From contig NZ_JAEHGD010000001.1 of assembly GCF_016097405.1 (NCBI RefSeq), forward strand, positions 2,009,436 to 2,053,436: a stretch of DNA of 44,001 nucleotides, in the 5' to 3' direction. Position numbers and translations under genes: made by a program. Below are positions 8,145-41,722 of this stretch, one piece after another; within the stretch, counting starts at the first letter, position 1, and the number at the start of each line of letters is the position of its first letter. The notes below the pieces were generated by a model. That model ran no database searches, was not told where the DNA came from, and saw only the letters and a program-made list of their open reading frames with translations. The DNA comes from a methane-oxidizing endosymbiont of Gigantopelta aegis. GTDB taxonomy: Bacteria > Pseudomonadota > Gammaproteobacteria > Methylococcales > Methylomonadaceae.

Positions 8145-8211
8145 AAATGTACATAAATGCTCTTGCCAGGTTGATGATAAAATCGGGCAAGGGCAGTTGG
8201 CAGGGAAAACG

Positions 8212-9936
8212 ATGATTATGTCATTAAAAGTCTCCTTTTCCACAGCTTCAGATAAAGGCCGAAAATCCATCAACCAAGATGCTTGCGCCGTGTCGAGTCC
8301 TAAAGAGCCTTATTTGACCACTAAAGGTATTGCTCTTGTGCTGGCTGATGGAATTAGCAGTAGTGCTGTGAGTCAAGAGGCCAGTCAAACAGCTGTTTCT
8401 GGATTTTTAAATGACTACTATGACACGCCAGAGTCTTGGTCAGTCAAAAAGTCTGCTACCACTGTAATTAAAGCGCTCAATGCCTGGCTTTATGGTCAAT
8501 CTCGCCAAAGCATCCACCGTTATAACCCAGACAAAGGATATGTCTGTACCTTTACAGTCGTTATCTTAAAAGGCGATGAGGCGCATATTTTTCATATTGG
8601 TGATGCGCGGGTTTATTATTTGCATCAAGGCGAGGTTCAGCAAATCACCGAAGACCATCGCAAAATTATTTCCGCAAAAAAAAGTTATCTCAGTCGTGCT
8701 TTAGGCGTTAACGACTCTGTCGAAATTGATTATCACCGCATAGCCTATATGACGGGGGATAGTTTTTTGTTAGTTACTGACGGCATCTATGAATTTTTAG
8801 CCGAAAAAACACTGCAAACACAGTTTCAACACAATCAGCCCGAAACGGTTGCGCAATGCTTGTTAGAACAAGCGTACCAAGAGGGTAGCGAGGATAACTT
8901 GACGGCTATTTTTTGTCACATCCACACCGCTCCCAAACGAGATGAAAAAGCGCGTTTAGAAGACTTGACGACACTGCCTTTTCCCCCGCATATTCAACCT
9001 CGCATGACTTTTGATGGTTATGAGGTTTTGCGGGAGATTCACATTTCACACCGTAGCCAGGTTTATCTTGTCAAAGATACCGATAATGGCCGTCAGATGG
9101 TGTTAAAACTACCTTCTAGCGAAATGCGGCAAAATACCGCACAGCTTGAGCGCTTTCAATTAGAGGAGTGGGTTGCTCGACGGATTCACAGTCCACATGT
9201 GCTAAAAGCGTGCGATCAAACCCGAAAGCGACATTATCTTTATTCTGTTTCGGAATATATTGACGGCATTACCTTGCGGCAATGGATGTTAGATCATCCG
9301 AACCCAGACATAGAGCACGTACGCAAGATCATCGAGCAAATTGCTAAAGGACTGCAAGCCTTTCATCGGCTAGATATGCTTCATCAAGACCTCAGGCCGG
9401 AAAATATAATGATTGATCAGCAGGGCACCGTTAAAATCATTGATTTTGGCGCTGTAAGAGTCGCAGGGCTGATGGAAATAAATCACTTTATTTTAGAAGA
9501 AGAAATTCTCGGCACTGCACAATATACGGCCCCTGAATACTTTTTAGGTGAACTGGGCACAGAAAAGTCCGATTTATTCTCTTTAGGCGTGATAGCGTAT
9601 GAAATGCTAAGTGGGCGCTTGCCTTATGGTGCTGGAGTGGCACGATCTCAGACTCGATTACAACAAAAACGGCTTTCCTATGTTTCTGTTATTGATGAAG
9701 ATAAAGCCATCCCTGTTTGGGTAGATGGGGCTATTAGGAAAGCCGTGCAAATCTTTCCTGAAAAGCGCTATGATGAAATTACTGAATTTATTTATGATTT
9801 GCGTCACCCTAATCCTAAACTGATCAGCCAGGAGCGCCCCCCTTTGCTGGAACGAAACCCAACGCGTTTTTGGCAAGGTGTTTCATTTCTTCTCAGTTTG
9901 ATTATTATTGTGCTTCTTTTAAAGCTTGATTCATAA
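8212..9936 (+). CDS. Fused PP2C phosphatase-Ser/Thr protein kinase with C-terminal membrane anchor
   Basis: A 574-residue bifunctional signalling protein. Residues about 1-240 form a PP2C phosphatase with metal-site motifs NQDACAV (about 21), LADGISSSAV (about 44), GDARVYY (about 130), VTDGIYEF (about 188) and EDNLTAIF (about 226). Residues about 265-530 form a protein kinase: a degenerate glycine loop, LKLPS lysine, catalytic loop HQDLRPENIM (about 390), DFG (about 410) and APEY activation segment. Residues about 553-572 are one membrane helix. The ATG at 8212 has AGGGA 6 bases upstream and is preferred to an in-frame TTG at 8197. Position behind the FNT channel suggests it controls that transporter or nitrogen uptake; this is inference from context. 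Confidence 0.88.
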   Translation: MIMSLKVSFSTASDKGRKSINQDACAVSSPKEPYLTTKGIALVLADGISSSAVSQEASQTAVSGFLNDYYDTPESWSVKKSATTVIKALNAWLYGQSRQSIHRYNPDKGYVCTFTVVILKGDEAHIFHIGDARVYYLHQGEVQQITEDHRKIISAKKSYLSRALGVNDSVEIDYHRIAYMTGDSFLLVTDGIYEFLAEKTLQTQFQHNQPETVAQCLLEQAYQEGSEDNLTAIFCHIHTAPKRDEKARLEDLTTLPFPPHIQPRMTFDGYEVLREIHISHRSQVYLVKDTDNGRQMVLKLPSSEMRQNTAQLERFQLEEWVARRIHSPHVLKACDQTRKRHYLYSVSEYIDGITLRQWMLDHPNPDIEHVRKIIEQIAKGLQAFHRLDMLHQDLRPENIMIDQQGTVKIIDFGAVRVAGLMEINHFILEEEILGTAQYTAPEYFLGELGTEKSDLFSLGVIAYEMLSGRLPYGAGVARSQTRLQQKRLSYVSVIDEDKAIPVWVDGAIRKAVQIFPEKRYDEITEFIYDLRHPNPKLISQERPPLLERNPTRFWQGVSFLLSLIIIVLLLKLDS

Positions 9937-10027: not shown

Positions 10028-11173
10028 ATGAGCGAATTAAACGAGCCACCTTTGATTGCACATGTGATTTTCAGCTTAGGTGTTGGCGGGCTGGAAAATG
10101 GCGTAGTCAATTTAATCAATACCATGCCCGAGGAAAAATACCGGCATACGATTATTTGCATTAAAAATTCGACCGATTTTTGTCAGCGTATTAAAAAACA
10201 AAATGTCGCTATTTATGAGCTACATAAAAAAGAAGGGCATGATTTTGGTGCGTACCTCAGAATGTATCGCCTGTTAAAACAAATCAAGCCGGCCATTGTA
10301 CACACGCGAAATCTAGCCGCGATTGAATATCAAGTGCCAGCTTGGTTTGCGGGTGTCAAACATCGTATTCATGGAGAACACGGCTGGGATGTATTTGACC
10401 CGGATGGTAATAATAAAAAGTATCAACAGTTGAGGCGTTTTCTAAGTCCGCTTATCGATAAATTTATCCCGTTATCACAACATTTAGAAGATTATTTGCG
10501 AGATAAGGTGGGTATTAGTTCTGAAAAAATAGTGCGTATTTGTAATGGTGTTGACACAGAAAAATTTTATCCTGTGTCACAAAAAACACCCTTACCCGGC
10601 TGTGATTTGTCCTTTAATTCAGAATTCATCTATATTGGAAGTGTCGGGCGTATGCATGGGGTCAAAGATCAATTGACCTTGGTGCGGGCATTTATTCGAT
10701 TGTTGGAAAAACAACCGGAATTAAAGGCCAATGTACGCTTGATTATCATTGGTGATGGGCCGCTTAGAGACCAGGCTATTAGGCTATTGGAATCTAAAGC
10801 AGTTGCAGAACTGGCCTGGTTGCCAGGGCAGCGTAATGACATTGCTGAAATCATGCGGCGACTGGATATTTTTGTGTTGCCGTCAAAAGCAGAAGGCATC
10901 TCCAATACCATTTTGGAAGCAATGGCGACAGGCTTGCCGGTGGTGGCGACCCGGGTAGGGGGAAATACGGAATTGATTGATGAAGGGGAAACTGGCTTGT
11001 TGGTGGAAAAAGAAAATAATGAAGCCATGGCCAATGCTTTGCTGGACTATGTTAATGATCCAGTAAAACGACAACGGCATGGACAACAAGCCTTGGAAAA
11101 AGTACAGAAACAGTATTCATTGCAAGTGATGGTCGATAATTATGTAGCCGTATATGACGCGGTTTCAGCTTAG
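10028..11173 (+). CDS. XrtA/PEP-CTERM-system glycosyltransferase (GT4)
   Basis: A 381-residue cytoplasmic GT-B glycosyltransferase. The N-terminal domain begins with HVIFSLGVGGLENGVVNLI, and the C-terminal Glycos_transf_1 domain has GSVGRMHGVKDQ (about 204) and the nucleotide-sugar segment SKAEGISNTILEAMATGLP (about 286). The N-terminal sequence and the internal HGEHGWDVFDPDG match the glycosyltransferase family found in exosortase-A (EpsH1) polysaccharide clusters. It starts the plus-strand polysaccharide locus, 19 bases before the amidotransferase gene. Sugar donor and acceptor are unknown. The frame is intact and preceded by TTAGGG. Confidence 0.88.
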   Translation: MSELNEPPLIAHVIFSLGVGGLENGVVNLINTMPEEKYRHTIICIKNSTDFCQRIKKQNVAIYELHKKEGHDFGAYLRMYRLLKQIKPAIVHTRNLAAIEYQVPAWFAGVKHRIHGEHGWDVFDPDGNNKKYQQLRRFLSPLIDKFIPLSQHLEDYLRDKVGISSEKIVRICNGVDTEKFYPVSQKTPLPGCDLSFNSEFIYIGSVGRMHGVKDQLTLVRAFIRLLEKQPELKANVRLIIIGDGPLRDQAIRLLESKAVAELAWLPGQRNDIAEIMRRLDIFVLPSKAEGISNTILEAMATGLPVVATRVGGNTELIDEGETGLLVEKENNEAMANALLDYVNDPVKRQRHGQQALEKVQKQYSLQVMVDNYVAVYDAVSA

Positions 11174-11192: not shown

Positions 11193-13085
11193 ATGTGTGG
11201 AATTGTTGGTATCTTTGATTTGGCCGAAAGTCGGGAAATCAATCGAAAATTGCTGAACGACATGAATGAAGTTCAGTTTCATCGCGGGCCTGATGAAGGA
11301 GGGCTTTATACCGACCCCGGGGTGGGGCTTGGCCATCGCCGGTTATCGATTATTGATCTGGGCAGCGGCCAGCAGCCGATGCGTAGCGATGATAATCAGG
11401 TGGTTCTGACCTATAACGGCGAAATCTATAATTTTCCAGCCTTACGCAAGGAACTGGAGCAACTAGGCTATGCCTTTAAAACACATTGTGATACCGAAGT
11501 GGTTTTAAATGGCTGGTTGGCTTGGGGTGAGGGCTGTGTCGATAGATTTCGCGGCATGTTTGCCTTTGCTGTTTGGGATAAGTCAAAACAAAGCCTGTTT
11601 TTGGCGCGCGACCGACTGGGTATCAAGCCACTGTTTTATGCTGAATTGAAAAATGGCCAGTTTATTTTCGCTTCGGAATTAAAAGCATTAAAAGTTCATC
11701 CTGATTTCCCACAGGAGCTGGAACCGACGGCGATTGAGGATTATTTTGGTTTTGGTTATGTCCCTGATCCTAAAACCATTTACAAAAATGTTTATAAACT
11801 GGAGCCGGGTTATAGTTTGACCATCAAGCGGGGGCAGACTGATTGGCAGCCCAGGCAATACTGGGATGTCCGCTTTACGGAGCGGCAGTATGGGGCTGAA
11901 GAGGAAGTTGCGGAAGATTTGATGGCTCGTTTTGAAGAGGCTGTCAAAATCCGCATGATGGCTGATGTGCCATTGGGGGCCTTTTTATCCGGGGGTGTAG
12001 ATTCCAGCGGCGTGGTGGCGATGATGGCGAAAAACTCCGAATCCCCTGTCAATACCTGTTCCATTTCGTTTGGCGATCCCAAATTCAATGAATCGCAGTT
12101 TGCGCAAATGGTGGCACAGCGCTATCACACCCAACATCGTGTTGAACAGGTTGATCCCGACGATTTTCAGCTGATTGACAAGCTGGCCGGGCTTTATGAT
12201 GAACCCTATGCTGACAGTTCTGCCTTGCCGACCTATCGGGTTTGTGAATTGGCAAAAAAGCAAGTGACAGTGGTATTGTCCGGTGATGGTGGTGATGAAA
12301 ACCTGGCCGGTTACCGACGTTACCGCTGGCATACTTATGAAGACAGAATGCGCTCGATATTGCCCGATGCAATTCGTAAACCGTTGTTTGGGTTTTTAGG
12401 TAACGTGTATCCTAAAGCGGATTGGGCGCCCAAGATTTTCCGGGCTAAATCAACATTTGAATCGATCGCCCGAGATTCGCTGGAAGGTTATTTTCACAGT
12501 GTTTCTGTCAACTCTAACGCCATTCGGGCGGCCTTGTTCAGTTCCCGTTTAAAGAGTGAATTGCAAAATTATCAGGCTGTGGAGGTTTTTCGCCGCTATC
12601 AGCAACAAGCGCCTAGTGATAATGTTCAGTCTCTTGTACAATATTTAGACATCAAAACCTATTTGCCCGGTGATATTTTAACCAAAGTGGACAGGGCCAG
12701 CATGGCGCATGCCCTGGAAGTCCGGGTGCCATTGCTGGATCATGAGCTGGTGGAATGGATTGCTACCCTGCCGCCGGATTTGAAATTAAAAAATCGGGAA
12801 GGCAAATATATTTTTAAAAAGGGGCTGGAACCCTATTTGCCAAATGATATTTTGTACCGCCCCAAAATGGGATTTGCGGTACCGCTGGGCAGTTGGTTTA
12901 AAGGGCCGTTGAAGCAGCAGGTCAGAGACGCATTATTAGGGGAAACCATGGCCGACAGCGGCTTGTTTGATCAGGCATTTTTGCAAAAAATGGTGGATCA
13001 GCATCAAAGCGGCCTGCGTGATTACAGCGCACCGATCTGGTCGTTGTTGATGTTTGAATCATTTTTGAAAAATGAGCAGAGATAA
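11193..13085 (+). CDS. XrtA-system amidotransferase (asparagine synthase family, type 1)
   Basis: A 630-residue glutamine-dependent asparagine-synthase-type enzyme. It keeps the class II glutaminase domain: MCGIVGIFD places the nucleophile Cys at residue 2, and RGPDEGG and TYNGEIYNF follow. The synthase domain has the PP-loop LSGGVDSSGV (about 264) and LSGDGGDENLAGYRRY (about 362). Length and sequence fit the exosortase-A-associated amidotransferase 1 family, thought to amidate carboxylates of the cluster's polysaccharide. A good RBS (AAAGGA) is present, and it is probably co-transcribed with the preceding glycosyltransferase. Asparagine synthesis itself is the alternative but less likely from context. 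Confidence 0.9.
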   Translation: MCGIVGIFDLAESREINRKLLNDMNEVQFHRGPDEGGLYTDPGVGLGHRRLSIIDLGSGQQPMRSDDNQVVLTYNGEIYNFPALRKELEQLGYAFKTHCDTEVVLNGWLAWGEGCVDRFRGMFAFAVWDKSKQSLFLARDRLGIKPLFYAELKNGQFIFASELKALKVHPDFPQELEPTAIEDYFGFGYVPDPKTIYKNVYKLEPGYSLTIKRGQTDWQPRQYWDVRFTERQYGAEEEVAEDLMARFEEAVKIRMMADVPLGAFLSGGVDSSGVVAMMAKNSESPVNTCSISFGDPKFNESQFAQMVAQRYHTQHRVEQVDPDDFQLIDKLAGLYDEPYADSSALPTYRVCELAKKQVTVVLSGDGGDENLAGYRRYRWHTYEDRMRSILPDAIRKPLFGFLGNVYPKADWAPKIFRAKSTFESIARDSLEGYFHSVSVNSNAIRAALFSSRLKSELQNYQAVEVFRRYQQQAPSDNVQSLVQYLDIKTYLPGDILTKVDRASMAHALEVRVPLLDHELVEWIATLPPDLKLKNREGKYIFKKGLEPYLPNDILYRPKMGFAVPLGSWFKGPLKQQVRDALLGETMADSGLFDQAFLQKMVDQHQSGLRDYSAPIWSLLMFESFLKNEQR

Positions 13086-13175: not shown

Positions 13176-13793
13176 ATGGGCGATAAAAAAAATAATCCGG
13201 ATAAAGATTTAAAAAAATCTGAAACGTCGATTGATCGTAGGAAATTAACCAAGGCCGGGTTGATTGCTCCCGTTTTAATGTCTTTCAGCAGCCGGCCGGC
13301 TTGGGCGGTGACTTGTACATTGTCAGGGATGCTGTCTGGTAATTTATCAGGTCCATTTGCTGGGTGTGATAACTCTGCATTATCGGCTGCTTATTGGGAT
13401 GCCAACAGGAATCAGTGGGGCACTAGAGGCAGTGAGATCGTTAATACTTTCTTTGGTTTGGGGAGCAATGGTTATTTTAATGCTAGTGTGACATTTAGTG
13501 ATGTATATGACGGAACAGCAACGGTCGCAACTGGAGTAGGTGCGGAGCATTGTGCTAATTCTGTAAATGAAGCGACATTTACATCAGCATTATTGGCATT
13601 ATTAAAAGAAGCAATAGCCGGTGTGCTTAATGTGGATCATTTTGGAACCAGTTATCCTGTGACTATTATTAACCTTCAAACTCAGGTCGCTACTGCGTTT
13701 ACTGCTGATAATACTGGCACATGTTCAACCAGCAACATGGATACTCTTAAATCGACATTAGCGGGCTATAACAATGTCAATCCATATCCATAG
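13176..13793 (+). CDS. Tat-signal, cysteine-containing exported protein upstream of HPr-rel-A genes
   Basis: No known family recognised. The ATG at 13176 has GAAGGGTG just upstream and is preferred to an in-frame TTG at 13149, giving 205 residues. The N-terminus is hydrophilic and lysine-rich, then reads SIDRRKLTKAGLIAPVLMSF...RPAWA: a twin-arginine motif (RRKLTK), a short hydrophobic stretch and an AxA-type cleavage site near residue 45. The mature part is Ser/Thr/Asn/Gly-rich, has four cysteines (two disulfides possible after export) and ends ...NVNPYP. It lies 18 bases before the PqqD-like gene, so it is a candidate client of the PqqD/HprK/nucleotidyltransferase proteins. A small inverted repeat TGTAC-TAAA-GTACA (13095-13107) lies in the gap before it. 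Confidence 0.72.
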   Translation: MGDKKNNPDKDLKKSETSIDRRKLTKAGLIAPVLMSFSSRPAWAVTCTLSGMLSGNLSGPFAGCDNSALSAAYWDANRNQWGTRGSEIVNTFFGLGSNGYFNASVTFSDVYDGTATVATGVGAEHCANSVNEATFTSALLALLKEAIAGVLNVDHFGTSYPVTIINLQTQVATAFTADNTGTCSTSNMDTLKSTLAGYNNVNPYP

Positions 13794-13811
13794 TTTAAAT
13801 AAACACATTTT

Positions 13812-14081
13812 ATGATGGCAAAGTTTGGGTTGCTTGAAGGCGTGGTTTTCAAGCAAATAGATAAACAGTTCCTTGTTTATTCCAGTTTTTCTCGAGAAAC
13901 GTTGATTGTTCATGAACTAGCATACAAACTTCTGTTACTACTTAAGACTCACCCCCAAACAGATGAAGAACTGATTCGGCGATTGAATCTGGAGCAGCAA
14001 GGTCTTGAAAATAATGCACAGGAGTTTGTGAGCCTGACATTGGAACAGTTCAGCCGCTTGGGAATTGTTGAGATTATTTAG
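13812..14081 (+). CDS. PqqD-like protein of the HPr-rel-A system
   Basis: An 89-residue small protein with a PqqD fold signature: an N-terminal beta region, the segment RETLIVHELAYKLLLLLK (about 30-47) and a C-terminal helical part with ELIRRLNLE. PqqD homologues act as peptide-binding chaperones (RiPP recognition elements) that present a leader peptide to a modifying enzyme. This one matches the subgroup that occurs beside an HprK-related kinase. ATG at 13812 (ATGATG), stop at 14081; the kinase gene begins 4 bases later, so translation is probably coupled. Its peptide partner is not identified; the Tat-signal protein just upstream is the nearest candidate. Confidence 0.8.
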   Translation: MMAKFGLLEGVVFKQIDKQFLVYSSFSRETLIVHELAYKLLLLLKTHPQTDEELIRRLNLEQQGLENNAQEFVSLTLEQFSRLGIVEII

Positions 14082-14084
14082 CCT

Positions 14085-15652
14085 GTGCCTGTAAAAGTCT
14101 TTTGTTTATCCATTCCGCCTTTTCAGATTCGATTGGAAACCGATATCTCATTAGTGAGTGATTCTATTGAAAAGCTGTATTCAAAACATAATTTCCTTAT
14201 TGAAGATAAAAATCAATTTTTTGATTTTCATATAAAAGTCGCTGCACCTACGGTATACAGAAAATACTTCAGGCCTCAGGCACAATTTTATTGTGATGGA
14301 AAAGCGCCCTTTAAACCATTGCCGATCTCACAAGCCTATCCATTTTTTGAATGGGGCCTGAATTGGTGTATTGCTAGGGGCTGTTGCCGTTTTGAAAATC
14401 CCCCTTGAAATTCAATAACTCCGCCACATAGATTGTTTATTTTGACTCAAAAACAAGCAAACTATGCCGCGACAACTGCTTACGGATGAACTTTGGGAGA
14501 AACTGAAGATAATTATGTTGAAAATGGGAATTTATGACAAACCTTGTCTTCGAAAAACAGTCGAAGGTATTTTTATCGAAAGCACATCAGCATAGTAGTG
14601 GTGCGGCCTGTGAACAAGAAACAGCGATAGGGAAATCTGTCGCCGGGAACACCAGTAAAATTCATATGGCCGTTGATGCCTGTGGTCTTCCTATTCATTT
14701 CTCAGTGACAGGCGGCGAAGTTCATGACTGTAAAGAAGCACCGAAATTAGTTGCAGAGCTCCCAAAAGGTGACTATATAGTTGCTGACAGAGGCTATGAC
14801 AGTGAAGCATTACGTCTTCAAATTAAAGACAAAGGGGCTGTTCCTGTTATCCCAAGAAAAAAAAGAATTCAACTCGGGGAAATGATGAAATGGATTGGTG
14901 TCTCTACAAATATCGCCATCTCGTTGAAAATGTGTTTGCAAGACTTAAGCATTTCAGAGCGATCGCCACGCGATATGACAAACTCAAACGAAATTTTGAA
15001 GGCTCTATCGCTCTGGCTTGCGCCTTTTTATGGTTACCTATGTGAAATGGCAACAGCCCCTAGTTATACTTATCAGTATCTCATTCTGCATGCAGCCGTA
15101 ATAGAAAAAAACAATCAGGCAATTATATTGCCAGGTAAGCCTGGGGCAGGCAAAAGTACCTTGTGTGCGGCTTTGGTGTGTTCGGGGTGGCGGCTTTTGT
15201 CGGATGAAATGGCAGTCATTGATCCTGCAACCTTGGAATTACTTCCCGTCGTCAGGCCGGTCAGTCTAAAAAATGAATCAATCAATATTATTACTGAATT
15301 TTCACCAGAAGCTGAATTTGGTGATGCTTTTTTCGATACAGCTAAAGGAACTGTGTCGCACTTAAAGCCGCCTGAAGAAAGCGTGATGAATAATTGTCGA
15401 AGGGCAAAAGCAAACGCTATTATTTTTCCTCAGTTTATAGCCCATGCAGATACAAAACTGGTTGAAAAGTCTAGAGCAGAGACTGTATTGGAATTGGCGC
15501 AAAATTCTTTTAACTATAGTGTATTAGGAAGTCAGGGCTTTGAAGTATTATGTACACTCGTTACCGGGATAGATTGTTTTGAATTTGAATACAGTCGTTT
15601 GCCTGAAGCCATGGACTTGTTTGAAACATTGGTGGAAAAAACGAGCAAATGA
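14085..15652 (+). pseudogene. HprK-related kinase A, interrupted by an IS5-type element
   Basis: The gene begins with GTG at 14085 and is split at 14376 by an IS. Joining 14085-14376 to 15063-15652 restores one 293-residue frame, reading ...GLNWCIA-SYTYQYLIL... across the junction. The C-terminal half is an HprK-type P-loop domain: Walker A LPGKPGAGKST and a downstream WRLLSDEMAVID acidic strand. HPr kinase itself phosphorylates a serine of HPr; related kinases phosphorylate other peptides, for example the C-terminal serine of the lasso peptide paeninodin. The N-terminal 97 residues now end in IS sequence. The P-loop half remains open as part of a 372-residue chimeric frame from inside the IS (14534-15652), so it might still be translated. 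Confidence 0.85.
14377..15060 (+). mobile_element. IS5-type element, copy 1 (internally deleted, 684 bp)
   Basis: The ends are GGGGCTGTTGCC and its inverse, flanked by a TA target duplication (14375-14376 and 15061-15062), as in the IS427 group of the IS5 family. Compared with the roughly 850-bp copies at 20145 and 40845, about 166 bp are missing near 14578. The loss removes the segment with the first catalytic Asp (FIDGSIVKAH), so this copy cannot encode an active transposase. The remaining frames still show HQHSSGAACEQETAIGKSV and the ADRGYDSE segment with the second Asp. It interrupts the HprK-related kinase gene. Confidence 0.92.
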
Positions 15653-16265
15653 TACCGCCACAAGATGTTTTGCTAATCCAGATTCTGATGCACCCAGACA
15701 GGACATTAACTCTTAAGCTGAGTGAATGGGATATATTGATTCGTCAGGCACGCAGTGCGGGTGTTTTAACAAGATTGGGTTTGTTGCTGAATGAACATCA
15801 GTTGCTGAACAAAATTCCACAACAACCCTTTAATCATTTAACATCAGCAATCCTTTATTTTGAACAGTTTGAATACACCGTAACCTGGGAAATCAAACAG
15901 ATACAGGACGTATTAGAGAAAAATAATATCCCTTTTGTTTTATTAAAAGGATCTGCGTATCATCAGGCAAACAATAAAGCTGCCAGAGGTAGAATATTTT
16001 CAGATATTGATATTCTGGTTAATAGTGAACAATTAGCAGCTGTAGAGAAAGTTTTTCTTACTTCAGGGTGGTTATTTGATAAGACAAATTCTTACGATCA
16101 ATATTATTACCGGAAATGGATGCATGAATTACCTCCGTTGAGGCATTTTAAGCGTGGGACTAGTCTAGATATTCATCATAATTTAGTGCCGTTAACCAGC
16201 AAGAGCTGTCCGGATGTGAAAAAAATATGGATGCAAGCCGAAACCGTCAGAGGTGGGGCGCTGGT

Positions 16266-17697
16266 CATAAGCGCCAACTTAAGCCCCCAACCACTTGATT
16301 AAACACGACTTACGCCCAGCTCTCTGCATTGTCGAATCATTCCCAAAATCGGTTCAGGTAGACTCTGCAACGAACGTTTTCTCGGGCGTTCGCTAACGCT
16401 TTTCAAATAATCACGCTGAAAGCGTTCTTGCTTCGGAAAACAGGCGTTCAATCCTGATTTAATGTCCTCAGCAATCGTTTTATACAAACGCCAGGGTGTC
16501 AATGCACGCGGCCCATCCATTTTCGTCAAGGCCTTGGTAAAACACCGCTGCGCGATCTTTTCCGTAACCACCGCATACAGAAGTTTGCCCTGTAAATACA
16601 ATTCGGCCAATTGACTGTCTTTACGGGCACGTAATTGATTGATCGCCAACAGGCTTTTCAGCCGTTTGATCACCAATTCCACCTGCCAGCGTACACGATA
16701 GAGCGCGGCAGCCGTTTCGGTGCTGAGCAACTCGACCGGCACGGACGTTAAAATTAAGACCCATTCACTGAGATAGAGCGTTTTTTCCTGGGCTGTACGT
16801 CCTTTGTTCTGCGCTCTGAGTTTCGCTTTACGCCGGGCTTGCGCCGCTTTTTCGGCAGGTAACGGAACCGCATGTACCGTGCAGGCGATTCGTTTAGTAT
16901 CATGGCACAAATAAACCGGAATAGCCCCGCTTGTTTCCCGAGACGTTGTAATTTCGTTTCCCAGTCAATTTTTATCATTTTGCCGTGCTCGTCAAGCTCG
17001 TATAAATTCATGCTGTGTGCGTTATAGCGCAGCACAATATCGCCACCTCGGTCAATAAAAGGCACCAACGACTTCGGTTGATTGTAGCCACGATCAATCA
17101 ACACGACATCGCCCGATTCCAGCACATAATGGTCAAGGCTTTCGCCAATCTTGTCCGTACTGACTTCAACCTGGCGCAATGTCAGTGAAATCAAATCTAT
17201 CGCGATATGTAGCCGATACGTGGTTTCTGTCGCACCGGGTTCCTGCACGGTCGAGCCATCAATAATAACGAAGCTTAATGAACCACTGTCAACCACCTGA
17301 TGCAACCCAAATACGCCCGATAGCAAGGATTTTACCCAAGGAACGCAGGCCGCCAGTCTTTTTTACCGCCGTATCACTTAAGTGAGCCCTGTAAGTGAGC
17401 CACCTCGCCGGCGCAACTCCGCAAGGAGAAATCCAGACCACAGTAGAGCATCACCAACTGTAACAGTTGTAAGGGCGAACGGATCTTGCGCGCACGCGTG
17501 AAGGCTTTAAATTCATAGGCTTGTTGTTGATAATCTTCTGGAAGTTCTTGCACAAATTGTTCAAAACGAGTATCTATGTGAGGTGGCTGCTTTTTCATAG
17601 GGTTTTCACTTTTGTCGGCAAAAGACTCTATGTGGTGGCCACACCTTTATTTTTCAACACGTAATCAATGATTTAATGGCTTAAGTTGGCGCTTATG
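16266..17697 (-). mobile_element. IS4-type element, copy A (1432 bp)
   Basis: Perfect terminal inverted repeats of at least 20 bases (CATAAGCGCCAACTTAAGCC) are flanked by an 11-bp direct repeat GGGGCGCTGGT (16255-16265 and 17698-17708). Eleven-base duplications are usual for IS4-family elements. It interrupts the nucleotidyltransferase gene. The transposase lies on the minus strand. Copies B (30730) and C (36246) are nearly identical. Confidence 0.95.
16299..17598 (-). pseudogene. IS4-family transposase of copy A, frameshifted
   Basis: The transposase reads from 17598 to 16299 and should be about 433 residues. It has the DDE parts IIDGST and LIDRGYNQPKS and the family YREK signature YRVRWQVELVIKRLK (Y-x2-R-x3-E-x6-K). 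Frame breaks: an in-frame TGA after about residue 74, shared with copies B and C; one fewer base in the adjacent A-run than in B and C; and C4 instead of C5 near 16925, which splits QAGAIPVYL. It is therefore not expected to be active. Confidence 0.88.
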
Positions 17698-18020
17698 GGG
17701 GCGCTGGTTTTATCATCTGCTGACAGGATTATACACAGCGCTGTCCATTTGTTTTATGACGGAGAGTTTGAGCATGGATTCAGGGATATTAGCGATATAG
17801 ATTTGTTACTTCGTGAATTTAGCAAGGATGAGAAATTCTGGAAGAGTTTAATATCAAGATCGACCGAGCTGAGACTAAAAGAGCCGGTTTTTTATGCACT
17901 TCGATATTGTTATTATTTTTTGAAAACACCCATTCCTGAACAGATATTAAATTTAGTCACAAAACAGTACAGTGAAACTAGATGGATAATAATGGATTTT
18001 TTGTTTAAACGGGCGCTTTT

Positions 18021-18062
18021 GCCAAACCATTCCACTTGTCAGGACAGGTGGAATGGTTTGGC
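18021..18062. repeat. 20-base near-perfect palindrome inside the nucleotidyltransferase gene
   Basis: Arms 18021-18040 and 18043-18062 match at 19 of 20 positions around a 2-base AG centre (GCCAAACCATTCCAC... and its inverse). It is read through in frame, encoding a stretch around PNHSTCQDRWNGLA. Such a structure is unexpected within coding sequence. Confidence 0.8.
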
Positions 18063-18175
18063 GGTATTTGTTTTATATATCCGCGGACACTTGTTGAAAA
18101 TGCCGCTATACTTGTTGATACCGCATTTGCTCAGAAAAGGCTGGATGCGACTAAGCGGTAAGGCGGGCCATTAAA

Positions 18176-19086: not shown

Positions 19087-20144
19087 ACTGATAAAACACA
19101 AAAACCATGCCATCCTTAAAAATTCTGCACATTCTGGATCATTCCATACCATTACATAGTGGTTATACATTTCGTACCCGGGCAATCCTGGAACAACAGC
19201 GCAATATGGGATGGCGCACTTTTCATGTAACCTCCGCCAAGCAGCTCAATGTTCAGCAAGCCAAAGGAAACGGTCGATGGTCTGGATTTTTACCGTTCTC
19301 CAAACATCAATCCGGTTATCGCTAAAATACCGCTGTTAAATCAATGGGCTGTGGTTAAATCGTTGGAAAAGCGGTTGGATGAAATTATTTCCGAGATAAA
19401 GCCGGATATTTTGCATGCGCATTCTCCCGCCTTGAATGGGCTTGCGGCACTGAAGGTAAGTAAAAAATTTAATATCCCATTAGTCTACGAATGTCGCGCC
19501 TTCTGGGAAGATGCAGCCGTCGATCATGGCACTACCCGCGAAGGGAGTTTGCGTTACCGAATGACTCATACGCTGGAGACCCATGTCTTCAACAAGGCTG
19601 ATGCCATAACCACCATTTGTGAAGGGTTGAGACAAGATATTGCTCAACGTGGCATCGAAGAGAATAAAATTACCGTCATTCCCAATGCCGTCGATATCAG
19701 CAAATTCAGCTATGCTGAAAAGGCCAATACAGAATTACAGCAGTCATTGGGCCTGGCAAACAAAACCGTTTTGGGGTTTATTGGATCATTTTATGCCTAT
19801 GAAGGTTTGCCCTTGTTGCTGGAGGCGCTGCCTGAGATTTTAAATCAGCAGCCAGATGTTAGGTTGTTACTGGTGGGCGGAGGCCCGCAAGAAGAGCTGA
19901 TTAAACAAAAGGCAACAGAATTTGGTGTGAACGATAAGGTTATTTTTACCGGCAGAGTGCCGCATGATCAGGTGCAAGATTACTATAACCTGGTGGATGT
20001 TTTTGTTTATCCGCGCCTGCCGATGCGCCTGACTGAGCTGGTGACGCCGCTCAAGCCTCTGGAAGCGATGGCGCAAGGGCGCTTGGTCGTGGCCTCGGAT
20101 GTCGGTGGGCATAAAGAATTGATCAAAGACCGGGGCAATGGTTA

Positions 20145-20996
20145 GGGGCTGTTGCCATTTCACATAGGTAACCATAAAAAGGCGCAAGCCAGAGCGATAG
20201 AGCCTTCAAAATTTCGTTTGAGTTTGTCATATCGCGTGGCGATCGCTCTGAAATGCTTAAGTCTTGCAAACACATTTTCAACGAGATGGCGATATTTGTA
20301 GAGACACCAATCCATTTCATCATTTCCCCGAGTTGAATTCTTTTTCTTGGGATAACAGGAACAGCCCCTTTGTCTTTAATTTGAAGACGTAATGCTTCAC
20401 TGTCATAGCCTCTGTCAGCAACTATATAGTCACCTTTTGGGAGCTCTGCAACTAATTTCGGTGCTTCTTTACAGTCATGAACTTCGCCGCCTGTCACTGA
20501 GAAATGAATAGGAAGACCACAGGCATCAACGGCCATATGAATTTTACTGGTGTTCCCGGCGACAGATTTCCCTATCGCTGTTTCTTGTTCACAGGCCGCA
20601 CCACTACTATGCTGATGTGCTTTCACAATACTCCCATCAATAAATTCCCATTCCAGGTCTGGATCAACAACCAAGGCGTTAAAAAATACCCATCAGTTTT
20701 TCTTTACGAGACCAGTCATTGAATCGTTTATATACCGCATTCCAATTACCAAAAGCCGTGGGTAAATCTCTCCAGGGACAACCTACTCGCAAGCGATAAA
20801 AAATACCTTCGACTGTTTTTCGAAGACAAGGTTTGTCATAAATTCCCATTTTCAACATAATTATCTTCAGTTTCTCCCAAAGTTCATCCGTAAGCATTTG
20901 TCGGGGCATAGTTTGCTTGTTTTTGAGTCAAAATAAACAATCTATGTGGCGGAGTTATTGAATTTCAAGGGGGATTTTCAAAACGGCAACAGCCCC
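20145..20996 (-). mobile_element. IS5-type element, copy 2 (852 bp, full length)
   Basis: Ends GGGGCTGTTGCC and its inverse, TA duplication at 20143-20144 and 20997-20998. It is the full-length representative together with copy 4 (40845). It interrupts the glycosyltransferase gene with the transposase on the minus strand. Confidence 0.94.
20160..20909 (-). pseudogene. IS5-family (IS427-group) transposase, homopolymer frameshifts
   Basis: The transposase starts MPRQMLTDELWEKLK at 20909. The family parts are GCPWRDLPTAFGNW, FIDGSIVKAHQHSS (first Asp), ADRGYDSEALR (second Asp) and a C-terminal MDWCLYKYRHLVEN with the Glu region. In this copy the T-run after MGIF is six long (five in copy 3, four in copy 4). 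The A-run after IPRK is five long (six would keep frame). The protein is thus split in three. Consensus length would be 249 residues. Confidence 0.85.
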
Positions 20997-21197
20997 TATT
21001 TGTTTAAGGCAAATAATAGTGATGACTTGGCGCAGACAGTTTTGGAATTATTACAGAACCGTTCACAATGGGAGGCACTGCGGCAGCAGGGCAGACACTA
21101 CGTTGAACAGGAACGCAACTGGCTGGTCAGCGTGGCGCGCTATGAAGCGGTTTATCAAGGTATTTTGAAAACATAGCGATAGCATGCTCAGCATTTT

Positions 21198-21867: not shown

Positions 21868-23204
21868 ATGAAAGTCACAATATTTGGAACAGGTTATGTC
21901 GGTCTGGTCACCGGCATCTGTCTGGCGGAAGTCGGCAACGATGTCGTCTGTGTGGATATTGATCAGGAGAAAATCGATAAATTGAATCAAGGCATTGTGC
22001 CAATTTACGAACCCGGTCTGGATGCGATGGTGAAAGAAAATATGGCGGCTGGCCGGGTGAAGTTTACTACTGATATTGCCGAAGGCGTTCACCATGGTGT
22101 CTTCCAGTTTATCGCAGTGGGAACGCCGCCGGATGAAGATGGCTCGGCCGATTTGCAATATGTGTTGCAGGTGGCCCGGTCAATTGCCGAGAATATGATA
22201 GATTACAAGGTGATCATCGATAAATCCACCGTACCGGTTGGAACGGCGGATAAAGTCAAGGCGGTGATTGAATCGGTGCAGCAGCAGCGGGGTGTCGAGA
22301 TTGATTTTGATGTCGTATCCAATCCTGAGTTCCTGAAAGAAGGCGCGGCCATTGACGACTTCATGAAGCCGGATCGCATCGTGGTCGGTACCGACAACCC
22401 GCGTACCGCCGAATTGTTGAAAGCCTTGTATGCACCGTTTAATCGCAGTCATGAACGGGTTATCGTGATGGATGTACGTTCCGCGGAACTGACTAAATAT
22501 GCTGCCAATGCCATGCTGGCCACCAAAATCAGCTTCATGAACGAGTTATCCAATCTGGCCGAGCGGCTGGGAGCGGATATCGAGCAAGTGCGCAATGGTA
22601 TTGGCTCAGATTCTAGAATCGGCTACTCCTTTATTTATCCCGGTTGTGGCTATGGCGGTTCCTGCTTTCCCAAAGATGTCAAAGCTTTGGAAAAACTGCC
22701 GAGCAGGTCGGCTACAAGGCTGAATTGCTCAGTGCGGTCGAAAATGTCAACGCTCGGCAAAAACAGGTATTGGTCAACAAAATCAAACAGCATTATGGCG
22801 ATGATTTAACCGGCAAAACCTTTGCATTGTGGGGCTTGGCCTTCAAGCCCAAAACCGACGATATGCGCGAAGCACCCAGCCGCGTCATTCTGGAAGCCTT
22901 GATCGATGCTGGTGCAACGGTCCAAGCGTATGACCCAGAAGCACTGGACGAAGCCAAACGTATTTATGGCGATAAAGCCGGCTTGAGGTTGATGGAATCG
23001 CAAGATCAAGTGCTTGAAGGCGCCAATGCCTTGGTCATCGTAACCGAATGGAAAAACTTCTGGAGCCCTGATTTTGAGCTATTGAAAAACACTTTAAAAG
23101 ACAAAGTGATTTTTGATGGCAGAAATCTTTATCAGCCAAAAATGCTGGAAAAACTGGGGCTGCAGTATTATGCGATTGGGCGAGGGCATTCCATAACAAC
23201 TTGA
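21868..23204 (+). pseudogene. ugd: UDP-glucose 6-dehydrogenase with one frameshift
   Basis: This enzyme oxidises UDP-glucose to UDP-glucuronate with two NAD+, supplying an acidic sugar for polysaccharide. The N-terminal Rossmann motif is [19 protein letters not shown] (residues 5-23), then [13 protein letters not shown] and [14 protein letters not shown]. The catalytic cysteine lies in [12 protein letters not shown], near residue 262. The C-terminal domain includes FKPKTDDMREAPS. Between KALEK and [10 protein letters not shown] the frame breaks in an A-run of five (22691-22695), where six would restore a single 445-residue protein of normal length. The product is therefore truncated after the active site as sequenced, unless this is a sequencing error. 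Confidence 0.92.
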
Positions 23205-23205
23205 T

Positions 23206-24280
23206 ATGGATAAAAAACACTTAATGTAGGCTTGGTAGGGCCTGTTCCACCACCTTATGGCGGAATGGCTAATCAGTTTAATCAGCTTAAAAAATTACTG
23301 AGCCAGGAGGGGTGCAGGTTTCTGCTGTGGCAACGAACCCACCTTACCCAAAGGCATGGATGGGCAAAATAAAAGGGATTCGTGCTATTTTCAGGTTGCT
23401 GCCGTATTTAGTTAAAATCTGGAAACTCGCCGGTCAAGTCGAGGTTATTCATGTTTTTTCAAATTCCGGCTGGTCATGGCAATTATTTTCTGCACCGGTT
23501 TTGTGGATAGCATCGGTCAGAAAAACCCCAGTGATTATCAATTACCGGGGCGGTGAGGCGCAGCGGTACTTTGAGCAATCCATTGCTGTTGTTCGCCCTT
23601 CCATGAAGCGGGCACAACGTATCGTCGTGCCTTCAGGTTACTTGGCAGCTGTTTTTCAGGCATTCAATATTGATAATGTCATGGTAATTCCGAATATTAT
23701 CAATTTGGAGCGATTTAGGCCTAAAAAGCATGAACAGGGGTATCATTTAATTATCACTCGAAATCTTGAAGCGATTTATGGTATTGAAACAGCGATAAAA
23801 TCGCTTGAGTTGATCAAGAAGGATTATCCTCAAGTCAAGCTGACCATTGCCGGTAGTGGCGAGCAAAAAGACTATCTACAGCAGCAAGTTAGTGCCTTGG
23901 GGCTTGAAGACAATGTTTGTTTTACCGGTAAATTGACACCTGATGAGGTAGTTGCCCTGTATCAACAAGCAGATATTATGCTAAATCCGACCACTGTCGA
24001 TAACATGCCAAATTCGGTGCTCGAATCAATGGCCTGTGGTGTTCCGGTAGTGACAACCAATGTTGGTGGAATTCCTTTTATTGTCGAAGATGATAAAACA
24101 GCATTATTGGTCGATGTGGGTGATTTTGAAATGATGGCGAAAAAAGTGATGACTCTGTTCAAAGATGAATCCCTCTATCAACGGCTGGTAACGAATGGTC
24201 TGGCGGAAGTGCAAAGGTATTCCTGGCCTAATGTTAAACAACAATGGTTATCACTCTATTCAACGGTGGCAAATCAATAA
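23206..24280 (+). pseudogene. Glycosyltransferase (GT4) with two 5' frameshifts
   Basis: A GT-B family 4 glycosyltransferase. The open part begins around 23312, but upstream frames encode the expected N-terminus: ATG at 23206, then VGLVGPVPPPYGGMANQFN, the usual loop of this family. Adding one base to the A-run at 23212-23217 and one to the G-run at 23309-23312 gives a continuous 358-residue protein. The C-terminal domain has GSGEQKDYLQQQV, DIMLNPTTVDNMPNSVLES and ACGVPVVTTNVGG. It starts 1 base after the ugd stop and its TAA overlaps the next ATG (TAATG), indicating an operon. Confidence 0.87.
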
Positions 24281-30271: not shown

Positions 30272-30729
30272 AAAAAGTATTTGATATTGATCCGATCTAT
30301 TCGCTTTAAGCTGAACAGCTTTTACTTGTCTCAGCCAATTTTTGTAGTGGGTTGTAGTCGGGCAGGAACAACACTTGTGTATAAAACATTATCTGAATCT
30401 CACTTTATAGGGAGCTTACAAAAAGAAACACATGATTTTTGGGCGGCATTACATCCACCTTTGCAAAGGAACTGGGAATCACATGAGATTCCAGAAGAAA
30501 ACGCATGTGATAAAGATAGAATGTATATCAGTTGGTATTTTTACAGTCAAACAGGGAAAAAGAGGATTGTAGATAAAAATAATCAAAATGGGTTATCTGT
30601 CCCATATTTATATAGACTTTTCCCCGATGCTCATTTTGTATATATAAAACGTAACCCAGGTGATAATATTAATTCATTGATTCAGGGTTGGAATAAAGAT
30701 GATGAATTTGCCACATGGTCTAATAACCT

Positions 30730-32162
30730 CATAAGCGCCAACTAAGCCCCCAACCACTTGATTAAACACGACTTACGCCCAGCTCTCTGCATTGTCGAAT
30801 CATTCCCAAAATCGGTTCAGGTAGACTCTGCAACGAACGTTTTCTCGGGCGTTCGCTAACGCTTTTCAAATAATCACGCTGAAAGCGTTCTTGCTTCGGA
30901 AAACAGGCGTTCAATCCTGATTTAATGTCCTCAGCAATCGTTTTATACAAACGCCAGGGTGTCAATGCACGCGGCCCATCCATTTTCGTCAAGGCCTTGG
31001 TAAAACACCGCTGCGCGATCTTTTCCGTAACCACCGCATACAGAAGTTTGCCCTGTAAATACAATTCGGCCAATTGACTGTCTTTACGGGCACGTAATTG
31101 ATTGATCGCCAACAGGCTTTTCAGCCGTTTGATCACCAATTCCACCTGCCAGCGTACACGATAGAGCGCGGCAGCCGTTTCGGTGCTGAGCAACTCGACC
31201 GGCACGGACGTTAAAATTAAGACCCATTCACTGAGATAGAGCGTTTTTTCCTGGGCTGTACGTCCTTTGTTCTGCGCTCTGAGTTTCGCTTTACGCCGGG
31301 CTTGCGCCGCTTTTTCGGCAGGTAACGGAACCGCATGTACCGTGCAGGCGATTCGTTTAGTATCATGGCACAAATAAACCGGAATAGCCCCCGCTTGTTT
31401 CCCGAGACGTTGTAATTTCGTTTCCCAGTCAATTTTTATCATTTTGCCGTGCTCGTCAAGCTCGTATAAATTCATGCTGTGTGCGTTATAGCGCAGCACA
31501 ATATCGCCACCTCGGTCAATAAAAGGCACCAACGACTTCGGTTGATTGTAGCCACGATCAATCAACACGACATCGCCCGATTCCAGCACATAATGGTCAA
31601 GGCTTTCGCCAATCTTGTCCGTACTGACTTCAACCTGGCGCAATGTCAGTGAAATCAAATCTATCGCGATATGTAGCCGATACGTGGTTTCTGTCGCACC
31701 GGGTTCCTGCACGGTCGAGCCATCAATAATAACGAAGCTTAATGAACCACTGTCAACCACCTGATGCAACCCAAATACGCCCGATAGCAAGGATTTTACC
31801 CAAGGAACGCAGGCCGCCAGTCTTTTTTTACCGCCGTATCACTTAAGTGAGCCCTGTAAGTGAGCCACCTCGCCGGCGCAACTCCGCAAGGAGAAATCCA
31901 GACCACAGTAGAGCATCACCAACTGTAACAGTTGTAAGGGCGAACGGATCTTGCGCGCACGCGTGAAGGCTTTAAATTCATAGGCTTGTTGTTGATAATC
32001 TTCTGGAAGTTCTTGCACAAATTGTTCAAAACGAGTATCTATGTGAGGTGGCTGCTTTTTCATAGGGTTTTCACTTTTGTCGGCAAAAGACTCTATGTGG
32101 TGGCCACACCTTTATTTTTCAACACGTAATCAATGATTTAATGGCTTAAGTTGGCGCTTATG
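30730..32162 (-). mobile_element. IS4-type element, copy B (1433 bp)
   Basis: The same terminal repeats as copy A, except that the left end lacks one T (CAACTAAGCC), flanked by the 11-bp duplication TCTAATAACCT (30719-30729 and 32163-32173). It interrupts the sulfotransferase gene. It carries the best-preserved transposase of the three copies. Confidence 0.95.
30762..32063 (-). pseudogene. IS4-family transposase of copy B, single in-frame TGA
   Basis: Reads from 32063 to 30762 in one frame of 433 codons, broken only by a TGA at 31836-31838 after residue 74 (...HLQGSLK). The downstream part (31790-30762, 342 residues) holds IIDGST, LIDRGYNQPK and YRVRWQVELVIKRLK. Around the TGA, the family-like sequence SDTAVKKRLAACVPW appears if one base is removed before it and one added after it, suggesting two compensating indels in a common ancestor. 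Confidence 0.85.
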
Positions 32163-32767: not shown

Positions 32768-34006
32768 TTAGACCTGATAACTTAAATTAGGTTTTTTGTT
32801 AATAGTATCTAATTGTTCCAATGCAAATTGTTTAATAAGGATCGAGATAAAAATTAGATGATACAACAAGTCCCAGTAAGATAACCCAAGGAATAAACCG
32901 CCGACCATATAAGTGATTATTGACGCTCTAATCATATAACAATAATTCTCTACCCATTCCATACCTTCTATATTCTTTGTTTTCTTAGGTAATAAAGTGA
33001 GGCTGATAATAGTTCCAATAATTAGTGCCATCCACATGGCAAATGCCACAAAGCCGTGTTCAGCAAACATTTCTACATAAGAACTGTGCCACTCCCTTTC
33101 TGTTACCCAGTGCCAACCCTCAAAGCCTGACCCTGTAAAAGGATGACCTAGGGTAAAGTACCAGCCATCTTTCCATGCTCGTATTCTACTCATAGCCGAC
33201 TCATCTTGATGAGAGCTTATACCACTCATTCGATCAAGCCATGCTTCAGGTAGAAAGCCTATAGTTAAAAACCCGCTAATTAATATAAGCGGTAATACTA
33301 ATATTTTCCGTTTACTATTCCACAGGAGCATAAATAATAAAACACCCATCGCAAGTAGCGCCCTCTAGACCATGAGGATAATGAAGAAATAAAGCTCAGA
33401 GGAATTGCAAATAGCAATCCAATTTTTAGGTTTTTATTTTTAGTTTCTTTGTACCATAAAATTAATAGAGGAATGTTAATTAGTACCGCCAGTGCAAATT
33501 GATTGTTATCCTCAAATTGGGTTCCCGCTGGACCATAGACTCGATAGCTAAACCCATGAAGTGCAGCAAAAACCCCACCTTTTGATGCAATAATACCAAT
33601 GGAAGCAGCAATTGTTATGATCAGATAATATAATTTTTCCTTAGTATTAATAAGGACTAAAGTAAAAAGATAGGGTAAATATATCTTTGTTACTAACCAT
33701 AGTTTTGGCCATGCAAGATAAGGAACTGTGGCTTGAGTCGTGGTAAAAATAAAGTAGAGATAAAGACAAATAAACAATGGTATGCGCCAGTCCTTTGGGA
33801 TTTTTGTTTGTCTTTTGTAAGGAACGTTCTAATGGCAACAATTATGAAAAGTATCTGGAAAGCAGGCAAAGTACGAGCAAATCCCCAAGCATAAGAATGC
33901 GGATTTAAGTAGCTAAAATTGCCAAAGTCAGCACACCATGCCAAGGAGTGCGCAGAGCCGCCACAAAACAGCCTATAAGAAATAATAAAACTACAATATC
34001 ACGCAT
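32768..34006 (-). pseudogene. XrtA-system O-antigen-ligase-like membrane protein, three frameshifts
   Basis: A polytopic Wzy/WaaL-type protein (about 413 residues corrected). It begins MRDIVVLLFLIGCFVAALRT and has IFSYLNPHSYAWGFART, diagnostic of the putative O-glycosylation ligase family found with exosortase A. Ten or so hydrophobic segments and the periplasmic loop GHPFTGSGFEGWHWV...WHSSYVEMFAEHG with conserved His/Glu follow. Frame breaks, each fixed by adding one base, lie at 33915-33918, 33813-33816 and 33361-33363. It is the last gene of the minus-strand operon. Confidence 0.85.
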
Positions 34007-35768: not shown

Positions 35769-36245
35769 TATATTTTCCTCGTAAGGTCGTGATGTTTTTT
35801 ACAAACATAATTATGAAATCGCCACCAAGCTTTAATGGGCAATGAGATAGGTTTAGCATGGGTGCTTAGACTGTATCCACATTGTTTAAGTGTATTGCCC
35901 ACCGCACCCTCAAATAAAGCAATTTGTTGCTTAGTCATTTTACGCCGCCATTTTTCTTTATTTGAATTTTGTATCGGCTGTTGAAGCAATGGGGTTTTTC
36001 CTGCTTCACCAGATTTTTAAAAATTGACCAGATTATCATTGTAATGCACATTCAGAAAATTACAGACATCACGCATGATTTTTTCAGGGCTTTCGAGTAA
36101 ATCTTCATAACGTATTTCATGATAGGTGGCATCACCTAAGGTTGCTCCCATTTGACGGCCTAATTCAATGTAAATTTCCCAATATTTTGCAGCAAAGAAA
36201 GTATTATAAACACCAAAGTCATGTTTTCTGTCAAACATCGATAAT
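35768..36245 (-). pseudogene. Sulfotransferase, C-terminal fragment next to IS4 copy C
   Basis: Reads from the IS4 copy C border leftward: FDRKHDFGVYNTFFAAKYWE, ATYHEIRYEDLLESPEKIM and, after adding one base at 36019-36023, LKSGEAGKTPLLQQPIQ ... KWRRKMTKQQIALFEG ... GNTLKQCGYS, a typical sulfotransferase C-terminal half. The N-terminal half with the PAPS loop is absent; on the far side of the IS lies a deacetylase instead. This is a different gene from the sulfotransferase at 28852. Confidence 0.8.
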
Positions 36246-41693: not shown

Positions 41694-41722
41694 TAATATC
41701 CATCAAGGAAAATTCCTGAATT

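Follow-up and report, generated by a model that had tools for sequence, protein, structure and literature searches.

A twin-arginine-type leader protein as candidate substrate of the HPr-rel-A kinase and its PqqD-like partner

HprK-like kinases phosphorylate the C-terminal serine of the lasso peptide precursors of paeninodin and pseudomycoidin; these kinases carry His-Lys-Asp-Asp residues, and in pseudomycoidin a nucleotidyltransferase homologue, PsmN, is required for the hexose on the phosphoserine (PMC9266682, partial text). HPr kinase, PqqD and nucleotidyltransferase have been noted with lasso clusters in a rumen survey (PMC7533575, partial text). Another described system is HPr-rel-A, for which NCBIfam names only the kinase (TIGR04352, HprK_rel_A) and a 'PqqD family peptide chaperone' (TIGR04353, PqqD_rel_X). 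Here we describe a four-gene cassette with both of these families in a stretch of 44,001 nucleotides (hereafter the window, whose positions we use) from a methane-oxidizing endosymbiont of Gigantopelta aegis (contig NZ_JAEHGD010000001.1, positions 2,009,436 to 2,053,436). Among open-licence full texts we found no paper on HPr-rel-A, TIGR04352 or TIGR04353, none joining PqqD with exosortase, or exosortase with exopolysaccharide and HPr kinase, and none joining HprK with twin-arginine and RiPP (ribosomally synthesized and post-translationally modified peptide). Kinase, HPr and exosortase go unmentioned in the main text of the two papers on the RiPP recognition element (RRE) that were searched by term.

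The cassette genes lie on the plus strand in the order client (our name for a 205-residue protein with a twin-arginine-type leader), PqqD-like protein, kinase and nucleotidyltransferase (Table 1). The arrangement is more than chance, because the identical gene order is found again in relatives. A preliminary description of this DNA had read four plus-strand genes with ATGA or 3-18-base junctions; we confirmed their coordinates and located the two insertions in them. The PqqD-like protein, and the C-terminal piece of the kinase alone, score over the cut-offs of their families. The clients lie outside known models: there is no match in Pfam for the clients tried, in NCBIfam for the window client and three others, or in PHROGs for the window client. 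We conclude that the leader protein is very probably the protein modified by the PqqD/kinase/nucleotidyltransferase set in many bacteria.

The leader protein and its co-occurrence with the kinase

Genomes were called kinase-positive if they had a protein over the TIGR04352 cut-off, which was the case in 37 of 101 family, 76 of 201 order and 61 of 398 phylum genomes (the samples overlap). A kinase profile detects the kinase in all 141 survey loci (141/141), and a PqqD profile detects the upstream PqqD in 127 of the 141; the window PqqD, used as a single-protein query against genome contigs, found nothing. For the leader we used an alignment of 61 rows (A1), in which two Arg, one Pro and one Cys are conserved at 90% or more, and a separate model built from 27 family loci only. 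The clients have the architecture of substrates of twin-arginine translocation (Tat): a twin-Arg n-region, a hydrophobic core, a charged c-region and an AxA-like site; 159 of 208 clients have a Lys or Arg among residues 13-25 past the Arg pair. A lipoprotein was rejected on inspection of the leaders, as the first Cys follows the AxA-like site at varying distance.

In the family, a single leader match at E<=2.5e-11 was found in each of 38 genomes, that is, in all 37 kinase-positive genomes and in G059, where the kinase is cut by the contig end; the best match in the remaining 63 genomes is 1.7e-4. The window client itself matches A1 at 3.6e-14 in the genome search. Of the 76 kinase-positive genomes in the order, 74 carry a leader scoring E<=1e-8; the other two are G113, whose kinase sits on a 4.3-kb contig, and G224, where the leader reaches only 6.3e-5. 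Two genomes, G125 and G128, have a leader only, with the client at a contig end. In the phylum, a leader is present in 41 of 61 kinase-positive genomes versus none of the 337 others at E<=1e-6, and in 43 versus seven at E<=1e-3. Genomes without a strong leader match carry ordinary Tat proteins.

Of 111 held-out loci (4512 open reading frames, ORFs), 85 gave an upstream match to the 27-locus model at E<=0.01; one further match lies on the opposite strand of L068, in a client that has its own PqqD next to the same kinase. We then turned to named loci from GTDB (the best 80 of 316 relatives), five of them shared with the first locus set. Their titles include Methylovulum, Methylobacter, Massilia, Noviherbaspirillum, Thioalkalivibrio, Sulfuricella, Nitrotoga, Thiobacillus, Magnetovibrio and Malonomonas rubra, and the kinases of the 75 independent loci are at the median 55.5% identical to the nearest kinase of the first set. 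A1 finds the client in 78 of the 80 (72 directly upstream of PqqD, five downstream of the kinase and one on the other strand), with 80 leader matches among all 6109 ORFs of these loci; L256, which is one of the two loci missed, offers only ~370 bases upstream. An exported-type protein conserved beside the kinase–PqqD pair in related genomes was thus looked for and found, e.g. in 73 of the 75 independent loci with A1 (68 of 75 with the 27-locus model).

The preliminary description had rested the client idea only on adjacency. The adjacency holds, but it is no longer the only ground, as clients also occur unlinked and the client class agrees with the kinase (see below). Seven kinase-positive genomes have no adjacent client and carry a leader protein elsewhere. 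It is paired with PqqD in four of them (G493, G294, G247 and G350) and stands alone in G145 and G178; in G306 no PqqD was detected beside the client. Client–PqqD pairs also occur in G410 (second copy) and in G362 (other strand).

Client classes and the enzymes of the cassette

The client set (223 proteins, 208 after dropping L177, L180 and duplicates) falls into two parts. A profile of the mature part gathers 136 of the 208 unique clients, which we call type I; the window client matches this profile with residues 3-194, nearly its full length (103.8 bits). Type I clients have the motif CxxSxxxSGNxS after the leader, in which C47, S50 and S54 reach 90% or more (103 clients, window numbering), a level that N152 reaches as well; S.N.S is found in 95 of 135 type I clients versus 8.0 after shuffling. 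The other 72 clients are merely not type I (L130 fits neither class), and most of them have [S/T]C[W/Y]xS near the C-terminus: C[W/Y]xS lies within the last 45 residues in 50, versus 0.7 expected after shuffling. Class labels were first taken from a regular expression that contained the motif and were redone with the profile, which put L076 in type I though it ends in SCWGSF and missed L262, which resembles type I. With L076 moved out of type I and four truncated clients left out of the count, 60 of 69 intact non-type-I clients have C..S in the last 40 residues, versus 8.4 after shuffling. Complete clients have 129-399 residues as read. The nearest relative of the window client, from the same genus, is 54% alike over the first 74 residues, with no further BLAST segment, and the client sequence changes fast beyond its start. 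In G199 a single cassette (L178:5254-8773, reverse strand) encodes two type I clients that differ from each other, and one kinase may here naturally serve two substrates.

The kinase tree tracks client class rather than genus. Client class changes four times on the tree, versus a mean of 43.6 and a minimum of 35 in 200 shuffles; this count includes the labelling error for L076, and the tree was quickly built and drew long-branch warnings, with nine labels given by eye and ten loci unlabelled (L124 was left out of the kinase alignment and tree, and G398 was left out as a locus). Within the family the class changes once, versus 8.6 in shuffles (minimum 6), and there are 25 changes of genus label for 17 genera.

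Three genera, g1, g4 and g11, contain both client classes. In g1 we compared the window with G016 (type I) and with G066 and G098 (type II, the other class); percentages are given in that order. Flanking proteins are similar in all three: 84, 83 and 80% for TIGR03108, 76, 75 and 69% for TIGR04063, 86, 87 and 79% for UDP-glucose dehydrogenase (UGDH), and 64, 68 and 60% for TIGR03088. The C-terminal part of the kinase is 57, 43 and 42% identical, the N-terminal part of the nucleotidyltransferase 49, 38 and 35%, and the window client has a match in G016 only. Between flanks that are more conserved, the client and these two enzymes vary jointly, so the cassette has been exchanged, or is diverging, as a unit. 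Some observations do not fit a simple unit picture: a glycosyltransferase at 23312-24280 has the opposite trend (26, 58 and 61%), UGDH has moved in G066, and G084 has a different setting.

The PqqD-like protein is predicted to have an RRE fold (pLDDT, the predicted local distance difference test, of 93.4). The nearest solved folds found by Foldseek are the lasso RREs TbiB1 and TfuB1, the ThcOx RRE, PqqD and PbtF; the top matches 5v1v, 5lq4, 6jx3 and 5sxy have TM (template modelling) scores to the query of 0.72-0.79. The PqqD profile matches TfuB1 at 1.7e-5 and TbiB1 at 3.4e-4; the window PqqD has no match to any Pfam family at E<=0.1, the PqqD model included. In 140 aligned kinases, H118, G138-K139 and D156-E157 are conserved at 100%, and the kinase profile matches HprK (1jb1 and 2qmh) at E 0.002. 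The nucleotidyltransferase is encoded directly downstream of the kinase in 116 of 141 survey loci and 77 of 80 named loci, and among 178 nucleotidyltransferases KG is conserved at 100% and D119 and D121 at 99%. L074:1444-3564 is a natural fusion of kinase and nucleotidyltransferase in one ORF of 706 residues.

A sister group (L177 and L266-L279) has HprK_rel_A-like kinases below the cut-off. In six of 14 loci (L266-L279) the kinase ORF also matches the PqqD profile at E<=0.01, and L267 matches a lasso PqqD model of NCBIfam (34.3 bits). A small RR-leader peptide of 57-137 residues as read, mostly with a very short tail, was seen by eye upstream in nine of the 15 loci; L270 also carries a nucleotidyltransferase.

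The copy in the window and its surroundings

Table 1. Features of the cassette and its context in the window
Feature	Position	Strand	Details
TIGR03088 glycosyltransferase, upstream context	10028..11173	+	534.9 bits, cut-off 409
TIGR03108 XrtA/PEP-CTERM-type amidotransferase (asparagine-synthase homologue), upstream	11193..13085	+	1066.4 bits, cut-off 816.9
Client, 205 residues, twin-arginine-type leader and Cys-containing mature part, type I	13176..13793	+	ATG start; alternative start TTG 13149
Conserved leader core of client, R21-R22 to A44	13236..13307	+	consensus RRxLxKxGxxxxPVxLTLxSxxAxA
Motif C47xxS50xxxS54GNxS58, candidate modification site	13314..13349	+	
PqqD-like protein, predicted RRE fold, TIGR04353	13812..14081	+	starts 18 bases after client; 37.6 bits, cut-off 35
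HprK_rel_A kinase gene, whole span	14085-15652	+	GTG start, 3 bases after PqqD
HprK_rel_A kinase, N-terminal part	14085..14374	+	TIGR04352 positions 3-91, 102.5 bits; frame continues to 14408, inside the insertion
IS5-like insertion in kinase gene	14375..15062 (approximate)	+	relatives at 20143-20998 and 40842-41695
HprK_rel_A kinase, C-terminal part, P-loop and D-E	15063..15652	+	TIGR04352 positions 94-280, 259.5 bits, cut-off 200; contained in ORF 14534-15652
Nucleotidyltransferase gene, whole span	15649-18174	+	4-base ATGA overlap with kinase
Nucleotidyltransferase (NTP_transf_5), N-terminal part	15649..16267	+	PF14907, 119.8 bits, cut-off 31.2
IS4-like insertion in nucleotidyltransferase gene	16268..17697 (approximate)	-	copies at 30729-32162 and 36242-37658
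Nucleotidyltransferase, C-terminal part	17698..18174	+	PF14907, 47.6 bits, cut-off 31.2
TIGR04063 glycosyltransferase, downstream context	19249..20145	+	484 bits, cut-off 442; model ends uncovered

The cassette copy in this strain is probably inactive, switched off by two insertion sequence (IS) elements, since the kinase and nucleotidyltransferase genes are both split by insertions; the frames of the client and PqqD are open. The IS5-like insertion is ~170 bases shorter than its two relatives in the window.

The preliminary description had placed the cassette in an XrtA polysaccharide locus. The window does contain XrtA-associated polysaccharide enzymes, but the XrtA part did not stand: the XrtA exosortase (TIGR03109) has no match at E<=0.001 in the window's genome, and 13 of 37 kinase-positive genomes have XrtA over the cut-off (versus three of the 64 other family genomes; Fisher p 1e-4). 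A dependence of the cassette on XrtA was rejected from these matches, though XrtA is enriched in kinase-positive genomes. The absence of XrtA despite XrtA-associated enzymes, together with the IS copies, suggests that the polysaccharide locus is decaying in this genome.

A scan of the neighbours of the cassette used 86 of 119 ORFs, after removal by hand of those overlapping the cassette or apparently spurious. Among the matches listed, the export protein TIGR03027 was found in six and TIGR03007 in three of these 86 neighbour proteins (28 of the 80 named loci), so the tie of the cassette to polysaccharide is suggestive.

Three further genes of the window may be mentioned. A single ORF at 8197-9936, adjoining a formate/nitrite transporter, encodes a PP2C-type phosphatase and a Ser/Thr kinase domain, below curated cut-offs. 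A TIGR03097 O-ligase-like gene at 32768-33777 looks broken (the piece scanned, 33298-33777, overlaps the frame 32768-33349), as does a UGDH-like gene, identified from its relatives, in two overlapping frames at 21868-23204.

Proposed function and comparison with known systems

We think it fairly probable that the cassette is a protein-modification system in which RRE-guided Ser phosphorylation of the whole client is followed by nucleotidyltransferase-dependent decoration and Tat export. The PqqD-like RRE would bind the N-terminal leader of the client (RRx[F/L]xK...PVxLTLxS..AxA) and present the client to the HprK-related kinase. The site phosphorylated by the kinase would be a Ser of CxxSxxxSGNxS just past the leader in type I clients; for most of the others it would be the Ser of the motif [S/T]C[W/Y]xS, close to the C-terminus. 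In cassettes with a nucleotidyltransferase, this enzyme may then add to the phosphate either a nucleotidyl group or one that contains hexose, as in pseudomycoidin. The modified client would leave via Tat and serve the extracellular polysaccharide. Phosphorylation followed by decoration is proposed by analogy with paeninodin and pseudomycoidin. The preliminary description had suggested phosphorylation and then nucleotidylation; the closest precedent, PsmK/PsmN of pseudomycoidin, yields a phosphoserine with hexose (PMC9266682, partial text). Binding, chemistry, site, order of steps, Tat export and the role of the client are what we infer from gene order, the leader family, co-occurrence, the RRE fold, catalytic residues and the agreement of client class with kinase clade, all read from sequence. 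The earlier proposal of a protein-modifying cassette with the Tat-signal protein as its client is well supported by the unlinked clients, the kinase tree and the g1 comparison.

Several observations weigh against this reading. A regular expression for twin-Arg leaders marks a protein upstream of PqqD in 122 of 127 loci, but this rule is too loose on control (873 of 3250 other ORFs satisfy it, as does an ORF upstream of 143 of 373 control genes); the count therefore means little, and our claims rest on the profile. The leader profile was itself built from kinase-adjacent proteins, so the recovery of training clients is partly by construction; the fair tests are the held-out loci, the kinase-less genomes and the near-always single strong match. 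PF10518 (TAT_signal) matches only two of 103 type I clients at E<=0.01. In the phylum, 18 of 61 kinase-positive genomes have no leader match at E<=1e-3: by eye, 15 of these have an upstream RR-leader protein (eight with the diverged f53 leader, of the kind RRALMLGAVGASAIVSIRPALAQ) and L139 and L143 show none, and one is cut by the contig end. The seven weak matches in the other 337 genomes range from 1.3e-5 to 8.6e-4. The predicted structure of the client has a pLDDT of 66.5 and no PDB match, the PqqD model has no Foldseek match at E<=0.001 (the best is 2.3e-3), and designed helical proteins match the PqqD profile at 1.1e-4 and 2.3e-4, level with TbiB1. No Ser is common to both client classes, and nine of the 69 intact non-type-I clients are without C..S in the last 40 residues (by eye, six of the nine retain a Ser beside a hydrophobic residue near the end). 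Linkage accounts for part of the agreement between kinase tree and client class, and outside g1 the contrast between classes is small: the kinase and nucleotidyltransferase parts are 45% and 39% identical for G186 (type I) and 47% and 39% for G031 (other class). Of the 137 loci with 500 or more bases of room, 22 have no nucleotidyltransferase gene immediately after the kinase.

A rival to this scheme is that the client phosphoserine gains a sugar via the nucleotidyltransferase and attaches or primes the polysaccharide of the locus, giving a protein-linked exopolysaccharide, which we regard as doubtful. The polysaccharide setting of the window and of part of the named loci (TIGR03027 and TIGR03007 neighbours) points this way, as does the need for a nucleotidyltransferase homologue for the hexose on the phosphoserine of pseudomycoidin (PMC9266682, partial text). 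The same 86 neighbours, however, hold much that is unrelated, e.g. hemA and prmC among the matches listed, and hence the polysaccharide tie is not general; the loci without a nucleotidyltransferase directly downstream also speak against it. The broader form, in which RRE-guided phosphorylation and then phospho-glycosylation of folded proteins before Tat export yields polysaccharide anchors or primers, exchanged as a specificity cassette in polysaccharide loci, is likewise put forward only tentatively.

In another reading, PqqD would act as chaperone or gatekeeper and keep hold of the Tat leader while the client folds, the kinase signalling readiness for export with no lasting mark. Tat exports folded proteins, and the leader masked by the RRE would also be the Tat-type signal; but such a gatekeeper would not need a nucleotidyltransferase, and the conserved Ser/Cys motifs lie outside the leader, so we find it unlikely. 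It is more improbable still that a small molecule or a sugar is the substrate of the kinase and that client and PqqD are merely co-transferred neighbours. The kinase is a P-loop kinase without an assayed member in our literature searches, and it lies in a polysaccharide locus; yet a peptide-binding type of domain lies between client and kinase, the co-occurrence persists where the client is unlinked, the kinase clade tracks the client class, and RRE-like domains are fused to the kinases of the sister group. It is very improbable that the client is cut to release a small peptide product, whether a new lasso or another: the enzyme kinds are those of paeninodin-type tailoring and an asparagine-synthase homologue is next door, but complete clients are protein-sized and, in agreement with the preliminary description, a lasso cluster is ruled out as judged by the cyclase, the neighbour being TIGR03108 over its cut-off and the lasso cyclase model NF033535 scoring 270.7 bits versus a cut-off of 525.

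If whole clients are indeed phosphorylated under the guidance of an RRE, such modification would extend beyond small peptides and include exported proteins. A widespread orphan pair of kinase and PqqD gains a concrete, testable substrate, natural client switches point to where specificity lies, and there is a possible link between protein phosphorylation and exopolysaccharide.

The cassette shares the P-loop kinase core with HPr kinase/phosphorylase, but its kinase is far below the cut-off of TIGR00679 (16.8 bits for the C-terminal piece versus 240). With RRE-dependent RiPP systems it has in common the predicted RRE fold, a conserved N-terminal leader and a variable downstream part; unlike them, its leader doubles as a Tat-type signal and its presumed product is protein-sized. 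The HprK-like kinase and the nucleotidyltransferase homologue resemble the tailoring enzymes of paeninodin and pseudomycoidin (PadeK, ThcoK, SyanK, PsmK and PsmN), and the C-terminal Ser targeted there resembles the C-terminal Ser of most non-type-I clients (PMC9266682, partial text). The cassette differs in having no lasso cyclase over the cut-off and, as substrate, a whole protein with an export-type leader. Compared by description with the His-Lys-Asp-Asp residues of the lasso kinases (same source, partial text), the His and Lys of the P-loop are kept and the acidic pair is D-E (140/140). The closest system is HPr-rel-A, to whose two families the window kinase and PqqD belong by score; what is new relative to it is the client family, its leader and its classes.

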